From Flavobacteriales bacterium (GTDB taxonomy: Bacteria; Bacteroidota; Bacteroidia; Flavobacteriales_F; PHOS-HE28), in NCBI GenBank assembly GCA_020852835.1, contig JADZAC010000006.1:1-64000 (forward strand): a DNA stretch of 64,000 nucleotides, given 5' to 3'. The position numbers and the translations under genes are program-made. This document shows, one piece after another, positions 55,922-60,518 of this stretch (the first letter of the stretch is position 1; every line of letters starts with the position of its first letter). The notes under the pieces were generated by a model, which did no database searches, was not told the DNA's origin, and saw nothing but the letters and a program-made list of their open reading frames with translations.

Positions 55922-56701
55922 ATGGTGCGCTATGGCCTGATCGGCCGCAAATTGGGCCACAGCTTCAGCAAGGACCATTTCACCGGCGTCTTTGCCCAAG
56001 CCGGGCTGAAGGACCACCGCTACGACCTTTTTGAGCTCCGCGAGATCGACGAATTCCCAGAGCTGCTCAGGAACACCAAGGGCCTGAACGGCCTCAACGT
56101 CACCATCCCGTACAAGGAATCAGTGATCCCCTACCTGGACGAGCTGGACCCGCTGGCCGCCGCCGTGGGCGCGGTGAACACCATCGCCTTCGTGGACGGA
56201 CGCACCAGGGGCTACAACACGGATGTCGCCGGCTTTCGCGCGTTGATCGCCACGATCAGCCCCCGCCTCAGCGACAAAGACAGGGCCGTGAAACCGCGAG
56301 CGTTGCTCCTGGGCAGCGGCGGTGCCAGCAGGGCCGTGGCCTTCGTACTGCGCGAGCAGGGAATACGCTTCCGGATCGTCAGCCGGAGCCGGGAGCGCGG
56401 GGACATTACCTGGGACATGCTGGACTCCTCCCTTGTGCGAGTGTGCCGCCTGATCATCAACACCACCCCGCTGGGCATGCACCCCAACGTGGAGGAAGCT
56501 CCGCCGCTGCCCTACGCCGCGCTCACCGCCAAGCATGTGCTGATGGACCTGGTTTACAACCCGCCACGAACACGCTTTCTGGAACTCGGCCGCACGCATG
56601 GCGCATGCACTGTTGGCGGCCTGGACATGCTCACGGCCCAGGCAACCGAGGCGTGGCGCATCTGGCAGGCGCCGATCGCCCCCCCCGGGCTTATCCACTG
56701 A
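55922..56701 (+). CDS. aroE: Shikimate dehydrogenase
   Basis: The 259-residue enzyme has the AroE substrate motif LIGRKLGHSFSKDHF, the catalytic lysine in LNVTIPYKESVIPYLDEL, an NADP-binding loop GSGGASRAVAFVL, and INTTPLGMHP and GGLDMLTAQA near the end. It reduces 3-dehydroshikimate in the chorismate pathway. It starts 9 bases after dedA and its 3' end overlaps the convergent sigma-factor gene by 11 bases. Confidence 0.95.
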   Translation: MVRYGLIGRKLGHSFSKDHFTGVFAQAGLKDHRYDLFELREIDEFPELLRNTKGLNGLNVTIPYKESVIPYLDELDPLAAAVGAVNTIAFVDGRTRGYNTDVAGFRALIATISPRLSDKDRAVKPRALLLGSGGASRAVAFVLREQGIRFRIVSRSRERGDITWDMLDSSLVRVCRLIINTTPLGMHPNVEEAPPLPYAALTAKHVLMDLVYNPPRTRFLELGRTHGACTVGGLDMLTAQATEAWRIWQAPIAPPGLIH

Positions 56702-57365
56702 TCCGCGCCAGGACCACCTCCACCAAGCGGTCGCACCGGCTGCTGCCGAACTCGAAAGCGGGTGCTTGCGCGTGTTCCTTCCATAGCGCCTCCTTCAGCA
56801 TGTCCTTGGCACGGTGCAGCCGCACCTTCACATTGCTTTCCGTAAGGTCCAGGGCCCGGGCTACCTCGGCCACCGCCATGCCCTCCACCTCCCGCAGCAT
56901 GTACACCGCGCGGTAGCCCTCGGGCAACCGGTCGATGGCCTGCTCCAAGAGCCTGCGGTGCTCCCCCTGGATGGTGCGTTGTTCCGGGTTCATTTGTCCT
57001 GTGTCGGCAATTCGTTCCAATTGTTCCGCATCCGCCGTGTCCGACACGACGCGCATGGTCCGCTGTTTGCGCAGTTGCTGCAGGGCCTCATTGATGCCTA
57101 TGCGCACCAACCAGGTGCTGAAGGCCGATTCCCCCTTGAACTGCGACAGCTTCGCAAAAGCCTTGAGGTAGGCTTCCTGCATGGCATCCTCCACGTCCTC
57201 CCCATCGTGCAGATAGCTCCTCACGGCGCGGTATAGCGTTTGGTTGTGCCTGCGCATCAAGATCTCGTAGAGGCCCGTTTCCCCGCCAACGACCCTCTCT
57301 ACCACATCCCGGTCCGTCCATGAGGCACTGTTCTGAAGTTCAGCCCTTTTCGATTGCATCACCAT
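56691..57365 (-). CDS. ECF RNA polymerase sigma factor
   Basis: The 224-residue protein has sigma region 2 (DAMQEAYLKAFAKLSQFKGE and FSTWLVRIGINEALQQLRK) and region 4 (LPEGYRAVYMLREVEGMA then LDLTESNVKVRLHRAKDML). A C-terminal extension FEFGSSRCDRLVEVV contains a conserved-looking Cys. It should direct polymerase to a small regulon. No anti-sigma gene adjoins it. The start may be 57365 or the ATG at 57359. A promoter with TTGTAACC and GCATCC elements lies upstream and mirrors the one of the divergent operon, so autoregulation is likely. Confidence 0.93.
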   Translation of the reverse strand: MVMQSKRAELQNSASWTDRDVVERVVGGETGLYEILMRRHNQTLYRAVRSYLHDGEDVEDAMQEAYLKAFAKLSQFKGESAFSTWLVRIGINEALQQLRKQRTMRVVSDTADAEQLERIADTGQMNPEQRTIQGEHRRLLEQAIDRLPEGYRAVYMLREVEGMAVAEVARALDLTESNVKVRLHRAKDMLKEALWKEHAQAPAFEFGSSRCDRLVEVVLARISG

Positions 57366-57401
57366 TGCTTGTTCATCCGTTGGTTTCCGCGACCTCTGTT
57401 T

Positions 57402-57460
57402 GGATGCGTGGCCCGAAATAAGGTTACAACTTTTGTAACCCCGGCCCCGTGCAGGCATCC
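57402..57460. promoter_or_regulatory. Symmetric divergent ECF-type promoter pair
   Basis: The palindrome GGTTACAA-CTT-TTGTAACC (57422-57440) supplies one TTGTAACC on each strand. On the plus strand it is followed after 14 bases by GCATCC (57455-57460). On the minus strand it is followed after exactly 14 bases by GCATCC (57407-57402). Identical boxes with identical spacing facing the sigma-factor gene and the reductase-folE operon strongly suggest back-to-back promoters read by the same ECF sigma factor. Confidence 0.75.
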
Positions 57461-57539
57461 AAAGTACACCGGCGGCGAACAAGAAGGCCGTCCCGGTGGT
57501 TGGCAACAGGCACATCGATCCACTCACCAAGATCATCCA

Positions 57540-58211
57540 ATGAACATGGAATTCCCGGTAACGCTCATTAAAAAGGAACAGCTCACCCACGATGTGGTGC
57601 GGCTCACCCTGCAACGCCCCGCGAACTACGCATTCGCGGCAGGTCAAGCTATCGACTTCCGGTTGGACCGCCCGGAAGTGAAGGACAAAGTCTCCCCGTT
57701 CACCTTCACCGGCCCCGGCACCGCCAACTATTTGGAGCTGACTATCAAGTGCTACCCTGCCCACCATGGCATGACCGAGCAAGTGGCCCGCTTGCAGGCC
57801 GGGGACGAGGTGATCATCAGCGAACCGTTCGACACGGTGGCGCTGAAGGGCCCCGGCGTGTTCATCGCCGGTGGCACGGGCGTTACTCCCTTCATCGCCA
57901 TCCTGAGGCAGCTGAATGCCGAGGGCAAGCTGCAGGGCAACTCGCTCTTCTTCTTCAACAAGGCCAAGGCGGATGTGTTCATGGAGCAGGAATTCCGCCA
58001 AATGCTGGGCAAGGACTTCCACCCGGTGCTCAGCAACGAAACGGCACCAGGATACCTCCATGGCATGGTGGGCGCAGACTTCCTGAAGGCGCACATCAGC
58101 AACTTCAAGCAGCCGTTCTATACCTGCGGCCCCGAAGGCTTCGTGAATGCCGTGAAGGCCGCGCTGGTGCAATTGGGCGCCAGTGAAAACATGATCGACG
58201 TACAATTCTGA
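57540..58211 (+). CDS. Ferredoxin/flavodoxin-reductase-type FAD oxidoreductase
   Basis: The 223-residue product has an N-terminal FAD-binding barrel with SPFTFTG (residues 52-58) and an NAD(P)-binding domain with GPGVFIAGGTGVTPF (104-118) and YTCGPEGFVNAV near the end. There is no plant-type [2Fe-2S] domain. It may pass electrons from NAD(P)H to a flavodoxin, ferredoxin or small redox partner. Its stop overlaps the folE start as TGATG, and a decayed copy of this gene lies after folE. Confidence 0.9.
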   Translation: MNMEFPVTLIKKEQLTHDVVRLTLQRPANYAFAAGQAIDFRLDRPEVKDKVSPFTFTGPGTANYLELTIKCYPAHHGMTEQVARLQAGDEVIISEPFDTVALKGPGVFIAGGTGVTPFIAILRQLNAEGKLQGNSLFFFNKAKADVFMEQEFRQMLGKDFHPVLSNETAPGYLHGMVGADFLKAHISNFKQPFYTCGPEGFVNAVKAALVQLGASENMIDVQF

Positions 58212-58861
58212 TGCGCGCCGCACAAGCAACCGGCCGCGCCGCGGCCCAAGTGCCGGGCAGCCCGGTCCCGGTACTTCACGCAGTTGGGCACGGCGATGGC
58301 GACGAGCAGAAGATCGCGGCCATCCGCCACCACTTCGCACAGATCATGGAGGCACTCGGGCTTGACCTCACCGATGAAAGCCTGCGCGACACCCCGCAAC
58401 GCGTGGCCAAAATGTTCGTCAAGGAGGTGTTCAGCGGGCTGGACGAAGCCAACTTCCCCTCCGTCACCACATTCCCGAACACCTACGGCTACGGTGAAAT
58501 GCTGGTGGAAAGGAACATCAGCCTGCACACCTTCTGCGAGCACCACTTCCTGCCCATCATCGGCAAGGTGCATGTAGCCTATTTCCCGGGCGAACAGGTG
58601 GTAGGCCTGAGCAAGCTGAACCGCATCGTGAAACACTACGCCCGCCGCCCCCAGGTGCAGGAGCGGCTTACCGTGCAGATCGCGGAAGGCCTGCAACGCG
58701 TGTTGGGCACCGAGGATGTTGCCGTGTACATAGAGGCAGACCACTTGTGCGTGGCGGCGCGCGGCGTGGAGGACACCAAGAGCTCAACGGTCACCAGTTA
58801 CTACGGTGGAAAGTTCCGGGAGCCGGGGGAACGAAAGAACTTCCTGGAAGCTGTGAAATAG
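58211..58861 (+). CDS. folE: GTP cyclohydrolase I
   Basis: The 216-residue enzyme shows HTFCEHHFLPIIGKVHVAY with zinc ligands (Cys109, His112), GLSKLNRIVKHYARRPQVQE and the third zinc cysteine in EADHLCVAARGVEDT. It converts GTP to dihydroneopterin triphosphate for folate or pterin synthesis. The first 25 residues are Ala-rich and not conserved, so a later start is possible. The overlap with the reductase gene and the shared ECF-type promoter place pterin synthesis under the sigma factor. Confidence 0.95.
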   Translation: MRAAQATGRAAAQVPGSPVPVLHAVGHGDGDEQKIAAIRHHFAQIMEALGLDLTDESLRDTPQRVAKMFVKEVFSGLDEANFPSVTTFPNTYGYGEMLVERNISLHTFCEHHFLPIIGKVHVAYFPGEQVVGLSKLNRIVKHYARRPQVQERLTVQIAEGLQRVLGTEDVAVYIEADHLCVAARGVEDTKSSTVTSYYGGKFREPGERKNFLEAVK

Positions 58862-58997: not shown

Positions 58998-59321
58998 AAG
59001 TTGACCCATGATGTAGCGGGCAGCACCTTGGAACGGCCCGGCATACCTGCTAGTAAGCCCCCGTTCACGTTCATTGGCCTGTACAGCGGACCCAACCTCC
59101 GAGTGGCCATGAAGACCTACCGGGGCGAGAAGACGCTCGCACCGTACGTCAAGCGGTTGGTGGACGGTGATGCACTAAAGATCAGTGAACCGCGCAATGA
59201 AGCGGTGTACCAGGGTCCCGGCGTGTTCATCGCGGGCGGCCCGGACCCGTTCGTAATCCCGGAGGCCGCTGCGCTTATGGAGCTTGGCGTGGAGGAGAAG
59301 CGGGTGGCGCCGTACCGTTGA
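58998..59321 (+). pseudogene. Decayed second copy of the FAD reductase
   Basis: The 107-codon frame from AAG 58998 reads KLTHDVAGSTLERPG, then PPFTFIG, KISEP and QGPGVFIAGG. It aligns in order with QLTHDVVRLTLQRPA, SPFTFTG, IISEP and KGPGVFIAGG of the gene at 57540. About 16 residues are missing after the first block. The nucleotide-binding loop GGTGVTPF is shortened to GGPDPF, and almost all of the NAD-binding half is gone before a short C-terminal match (AALMELG against AALVQLG). It cannot be functional as a reductase. It is best seen as a decayed tandem duplicate with its frame still open. Confidence 0.75.
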
Positions 59322-60047: not shown

Positions 60048-60473
60048 TTATGTTGCCCCGCCCAACTCCGCAGGCGACCAGTACCGTTGCCGCATCCAGA
60101 TCCGGAACAGCGGGTCCAGCCATTCCACCTGCTGCCCCTCAAAGTCGAGGATGTCCTTGGCGCGCATGGCATCGCGGATGCGCCCCACGTTGCCGGAGGT
60201 TCCCAGCCCATAGTGCTGCACGGTTTCCTTGGCGCTCATCTTCGTTTCGCCCGAGAGCAGGGCTTTCAGGAAACCGAGCTGGGGCAAGGTGAACTCCTCC
60301 ACGATGCGTTGGTAGAGCATGGTGTGGTGGTCCAGCAGGTGCTCCATGGCCTGGTCGATGTCGGCCTGCTTGCATTGCTTGCTGCTGAGCAGGAAAGTGC
60401 TGTAGGCCAATTTCTGCACGCCGTACGGGTGGTCGCCCATGCGGGCAGCGATGTGGTCCGCCAATGCCGCGCT
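60048..60473 (-). pseudogene. C-terminal remnant of an AAA+ ATPase
   Basis: The frame encodes about 140 residues resembling only the last third of the Bacteroidota ATP-binding proteins of the archaeal-ATPase (PF01637-like) type: HPYGVQKLAYSTFLLSSKQC, FTLPQLGFLKALLSGE, YGLGTSGNVGRIRDAM and VEWLDPLFRIWMRQRYW. The Walker A and B region of about 250 residues is absent. Homology begins right after the AT-rich repeat cluster, with an in-frame TGA between them. Only a TTG could serve as an early start codon. A deletion or insertion most likely removed the 5' part. Confidence 0.7.
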
Positions 60474-60476
60474 TCA

Positions 60477-60518
60477 GTATGATACAATTATGTATGATAC
60501 TAATTTGTATCATACAAA
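60477..60518. repeat. AT-rich cluster of GTATGATAC repeats and palindrome
   Basis: GTATGATAC occurs directly at 60477-60485 and 60492-60500, and inverted as GTATCATAC at 60507-60515. The last copy lies in a perfect 15-base palindrome TTTGTATCATACAAA (60504-60518). Composition contrasts sharply with the surrounding GC-rich sequence. It abuts the broken end of the ATPase remnant and could be its old promoter-operator or the footprint of a mobile element. Confidence 0.7.

Follow-up and report, generated by a model that had tools for sequence, protein, structure and literature searches.

The locus and its predicted promoters

The window (the whole 64,000-nucleotide stretch that was analysed) carries an ECF sigma factor gene and a divergent reductase-folE operon, with two predicted promoters placed head to head in the intergenic region between them. 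The features, from left to right, are:

56691-57365, minus strand: ECF sigma factor gene, 224 aa (Sigma70_r2, Sigma70_r4_2, NCBIfam NF008888 (PRK11922)), with an extra C-terminal helix and invariant Cys211
57400-57407, minus strand: predicted -10 element GCATCCAA of the sigma-gene promoter, read from 57407 to 57400 (pattern match and conservation)
57422-57429, minus strand: predicted -35 element TTGTAACC of the sigma-gene promoter (pattern match and shuffles; kept in the 14 genus orthologues)
57433-57440, plus strand: predicted -35 element TTGTAACC of the reductase-folE promoter (pattern match, shuffles and genus conservation)
57455-57462, plus strand: predicted -10 element GCATCCAA of the reductase-folE promoter (pattern match and conservation)
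57540-58211, plus strand: flavin reductase of the FNR type (FAD/NAD(P)-binding), which opens the divergent operon
58211-58861, plus strand: folE, GTP cyclohydrolase I, second copy, with the zinc-site residues CEHH and the later Cys retained
59001-59321, plus strand: remnant of a second FNR-type reductase gene, lying 3' of folE (40% identical across residues 42-130)

The sigma protein is a full-length match to NF008888 (247.6 bits, against a curated cut-off of 204), a family whose entry names no regulon or promoter, and its possession of regions 2 and 4 without region 3 places it among the ECF members of the sigma-70 family. Its gene abuts the convergent aroE at the 3' end, the genes downstream of it differ among relatives, and no anti-sigma gene was found among its neighbours at the locus. 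In the divergent operon the reductase and folE reading frames overlap by one base. The other FolE copy of this genome is encoded after PTPS on contig C2, and the window FolE has 39% identity to the matching FolE, also beside PTPS, of the relative G004. An intact second reductase copy is seen near the same place of the locus in G022, G032, G004 and G006. Further right, at 60048-60500 on the minus strand, what looks like part of a longer protein-coding gene is truncated near a TATGATACAATTATGTATGATA repeat, beside an mnmE-like gene.

The promoter pair is intergenic, lying between the sigma start at 57365 (minus) and the reductase start at 57540 (plus). As the preliminary description had claimed, TTGTAACC-N14-GCATCC can be read on both strands (57433-57460 on the plus, 57429-57402 on the minus), with TTGTAACC at 57433-57440 and GCATCC at 57455-57460 in one direction, TTGTAACC at 57429-57422 and GCATCC at 57407-57402 in the other, and 14 bases between them in each. 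The window contains no further match, and its dinucleotide shuffles gave none (0/100). The perfect palindrome GGTTACAA-CTT-TTGTAACC reported with them is likewise present, at 57422-57440, so that 57400-57462 reads TTGGATGC-GTGGCCCGAAATAA-GGTTACAA-CTT-TTGTAACC-CCGGCCCCGTGCAG-GCATCCAA. Identity on the -10 side is longer than GCATCC, extending to CATCCAA on both strands and indeed to the full box GCATCCAA on both. We take TGTAAC to be the region-4 (-35) element and ATCCAA the region-2 (-10) element, in line with established ECF biology; no sigma-70 type promoters were found in the promoter region. Transcripts would then start at about 57394-57397 for the sigma gene and about 57465-57468 for reductase-folE, roughly 70 bp apart.

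The promoter motif and its targets within the genus

Of 45 genus genomes, 14 have an orthologue of the sigma gene; the 13 besides the window genome show 56-78% identity, and the remaining 31 yield only distant ECF paralogues as their top matches. The divergent promoter pair accompanies the orthologue at all 14 loci. Exact motif sites occur in 14/14 genomes with the sigma gene vs 2/31 without it (Fisher 7e-10), and the reversed pattern gave none in any of the 45. The FNR reductase tracks the sigma gene in the same way, a close orthologue being found in 13/14 vs 0/31, as does an operon for DUF4142 and cupredoxin proteins, which carries the same promoter (9/14 vs 0/31). The nine genomes with this DUF4142 and cupredoxin target all have the sigma gene; the motif is exact or near-exact in eight of them and has two mismatches in the ninth.

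The predicted regulon rests on pattern searches, which for the window genome covered 3.44 Mb in 96 contigs. TGTAAC-N16-CATCCAA occurs exactly at a single place in that genome, the window locus; one mismatch adds two further sites, a level at which the reversed control gave 0. Across the genus the targets other than the sigma gene have one upstream site each (DUF4142-cupredoxin, PTPS, the MbnP operon and the helical bundle).

The PTPS promoter shows the ECF motif in five genomes, all with the sigma gene (Fisher 0.006). Here TGTAACC...CATCC is laid over a housekeeping TAnnTTTG element (L102:1566-1603, on contig C2; L103-L105 and L279) that is found in most genus genomes examined, with and without the sigma gene alike. 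A pure ECF promoter at this site was considered and rejected, because relatives lacking the sigma gene share the underlying TAnnTTTG element.

In the window genome a gene for a secreted helical-bundle protein lies downstream of the one-mismatch site C78:17405. G000 and G018 both have members of its family as targets; the family has no Pfam or NCBIfam match over the cut-off, and supplies the divergent gene at the sigma locus of one Ignavibacteria genome (37% identity). It recurs as a putative target of the sigma factor across phyla (L106:3229-3885, L114:1871-2551, L202).

An operon for a small Cys-containing protein and a CDQC protein is a target in three genus genomes, with MbnP added in G022. 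At L110 (1411-3617), L116 and L120 the sigma motif lies about 75 bp upstream of this operon, and there the Cys-containing protein is secreted and the CDQC protein is beta-barrel-like, with a weak Phenol_MetA_deg match; at L110 the operon also encodes an MbnP-type protein. The small Cys proteins have no NCBIfam name, and the operon looks copper-related. A light or photolyase regulon was set aside, no relevant literature having been found and no photolyase being among the identified targets.

Conservation beyond the genus

The divergent pair TGTAAC-N17-ATCYAA is present upstream in 62 of 91 loci with relatives of the ECF sigma gene; in 200 shuffles of the upstream regions of the 91 loci the mean was 0.01 pairs and the maximum 1. 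The named genomes that contributed loci to the set of 91 include Aequorivita, Aquimarina, Gelidibacter, Pontibacter, Roseivirga, Ignavibacteria and Acidobacteria. Under the limits used the motif is absent from 25 of the 91 homologues, mostly in Acidobacteria and Proteobacteria. TGTAAC and ATCNAA are separated by 17 bases in 55/56 forward pairs and in 39/44 reverse ones, and the gap between the two -35 cores is 5-6 bp in 49/62 (5 bp in 17 loci, 6 bp in 32), while the bases within it vary (22 distinct spacers in 35).

There is a second gap class of 19-23 bp, which forms one clade of the sigma tree comprising Chitinophagaceae, other Bacteroidota and one Ignavibacteria, and four loci have gaps of 34, 154, 161 and 174 bp. 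The tight layout requires only four changes on the sigma tree and is, in this reconstruction, the ancestral state. The predicted abutting layout around this sigma factor is conserved in many Bacteroidota families and some Ignavibacteria. In the other families tested, exact sites away from the sigma locus are mostly intragenic and were not counted as targets, so a wider regulon is not supported there.

The proposed circuit and its alternatives

These data suggest, with good though not complete confidence, a self-regulating ECF sigma factor that drives both its own gene and a divergent partner through head-to-head promoters. The sigma factor (56691-57365) would recognise TGTAAC-N17-ATCCAA on either strand, transcribing its own gene leftwards, which would constitute positive feedback, and the reductase-folE operon rightwards, and it probably also reads the PTPS-folE operon (C2) and the secreted helical-bundle gene (C78). 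The preliminary description had read the locus as two ECF promoters serving autoregulation and a divergent reductase-folE operon, and comparison favours that reading (14/14 genus loci, 62/91 loci overall); the motif it had put forward for a genome scan proved to be conserved and present at other plausible targets.

With 5-6 bp between the cores, holoenzymes of normal footprint would overlap in the -35 region that the two promoters share. A second holoenzyme would run into the first there, so that simultaneous occupancy is unlikely and each firing event would likely be exclusive. A 5-6 bp gap corresponds to about 11-12 bp between core centres, which would put both region-4 domains near one helix face, and its conservation hints at a constraint on the two promoters. 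Mutual exclusion nevertheless cannot be essential everywhere, as some relatives have their predicted promoters 34-174 bp apart.

The strongest competing explanation, that these are two ordinary promoters kept close by a compact genome and shared ancestry without functional coupling, is a serious one to which we give a little less than even weight. The tree reconstructs the tight gap as ancestral and rarely altered, and the wide versions presumably work, but a gap held at 5-6 bp in 49/62 loci despite turnover of the spacer is not what free indel drift would be expected to give. A fuller form of the coupled circuit goes further and is offered tentatively, as rather unlikely to hold in every part: phylum-wide, inverted -35 elements locked 5-6 bp apart would form a composite site for one polymerase, at which self-amplification of the sigma factor and expression of the partner operon compete sterically, DNA geometry would set their ratio, and the cysteine in the sigma factor's own C-terminal helix would replace an anti-sigma factor.

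It is improbable that the GTTACA-N5/6-TGTAAC dyad is instead the operator of a separate dimeric regulator of both genes, with promoters elsewhere. Such an operator would explain a perfect dyad whose half-site centres are one turn apart and whose spacing is strongly conserved, but not the lone half-sites that other targets carry, each followed after 17 bases by ATCCAA, nor the loci in which the dyad is split by 34-174 bp (L018, L024, L025, L167) and each half keeps its own -10 box; the spacer sequence is moreover unconserved and the motif tracks the sigma gene. Because the half-sites occur singly and separated, the palindrome is best read as the consequence of two -35 elements standing head to head and not as an operator. 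Slightly less credible again is the view that another ECF paralogue reads both promoters and this sigma gene is merely one of its targets. Several ECF paralogues, which could share the motif, are present per genus genome, and the window genome has 18 matches to the sigma query, yet genus genomes without this sigma gene keep ECF paralogues and lack both motif and targets. A chance inverted repeat can be dismissed given the shuffles and the phylum-wide conservation.

The two-promoter circuit predicts a promoter consensus, together with partners and targets, for a Bacteroidota-wide ECF sigma factor, for which no paper describing the sigma or its motif in Bacteroidota was found in a search limited to one library of open papers. 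The existence of 5-6, 19-23 and >150 bp versions also provides a natural test of divergent promoters with abutting -35 elements that share one sigma factor.

Signal and comparison with known systems

A C-terminal F-x(3-5)-C-[DN] cysteine motif is present in 59/59 sigma proteins checked, and the predicted structure (pLDDT 79, pTM 0.56) places the cysteine at the start of the extra helix, residues 208-223. This cysteine is a candidate sensor: with no anti-sigma gene adjacent, sigma activity is probably set by the C-terminal helix that carries it. The signal is probably a metal (copper) or redox stress, copper being suggested by targets that include cupredoxin, MbnP and DUF4142/DUF305-type proteins. 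A C-terminal extension can indeed serve as sensor in Myxococcus CorE (PMC8999054). The metal-responsive CorE/CorE2 (ECF238) likewise have no separate anti-sigma and a cysteine in the C-terminal extension (PMC8999054), but CorE is distinguished by its cysteine-rich domain and by a CXC in the linker, unlike the single Cys211 and cysteine-free linker found here.

The closest functional analogue is Caulobacter crescentus sigmaF, which recognises GTAACC-N16-CGAA both upstream of its own gene and at the adjacent CC3254-3257 operon under heavy-metal stress (PMC3511200). The -35 GTAACC is shared, and in Caulobacter the sigma gene and this operon, which includes DoxX, are both sigmaF-dependent, much as is predicted for the two promoters here. 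However, the -10 box is CGAA at N16 in Caulobacter and ATCCAA at TGTAAC-N17 here, the sigmaF operon contains the anti-sigma NrsF (DUF1109) where the present sigma gene abuts convergent aroE, and the sigmaF targets DUF2282, DUF692 and DUF2063 were not seen here. As anti-sigma and -10 box differ, membership of the sigmaF (ECF16-like) group is not claimed.

Pterin synthesis and other partner genes

The preliminary description called a link between pterin synthesis and an ECF circuit unexpected. The link itself stands in so far as folE is in the operon here, and it is unexpected only in part, as it has a precedent in Rhodobacter, where RpoE, of the RpoE-ChrR singlet-oxygen regulon, controls folE2 (PMC7074977). 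That is likewise an ECF sigma factor over a GTP cyclohydrolase gene, FolE2 there and FolE here, but it is paired with the zinc anti-sigma ChrR, no ChrR-type gene lying next to the sigma gene here, and the text consulted describes no abutting promoter pair. FolE is known to be vulnerable to metal or oxidative stress (PMC10882993), and plasmid-expressed FolE confers arsenic tolerance (PMC9144182). Placing a second, stress-linked FolE under predicted ECF control is relevant to the question of why metal-sensitive GTP cyclohydrolases occur in duplicate.

Beyond the genus, the gene read divergently from the sigma gene encodes a MauE/DoxX-like four-helix membrane protein in 46 of 63 scored loci, and sometimes the reductase, FolE or DUF4142. 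Because most relatives have this small membrane protein in the divergent position, pterin synthesis appears as an add-on in the present lineage, outside the circuit's core. The Betaproteobacteria L223, L225 and L230 also have homologues of the sigma gene, which lack the motif. In L223 and L230 a ferritin-like protein with a Tat-like signal is encoded downstream of the sigma gene (Ferritin_2 in L223), which suggests that the sigma family has switched partners.
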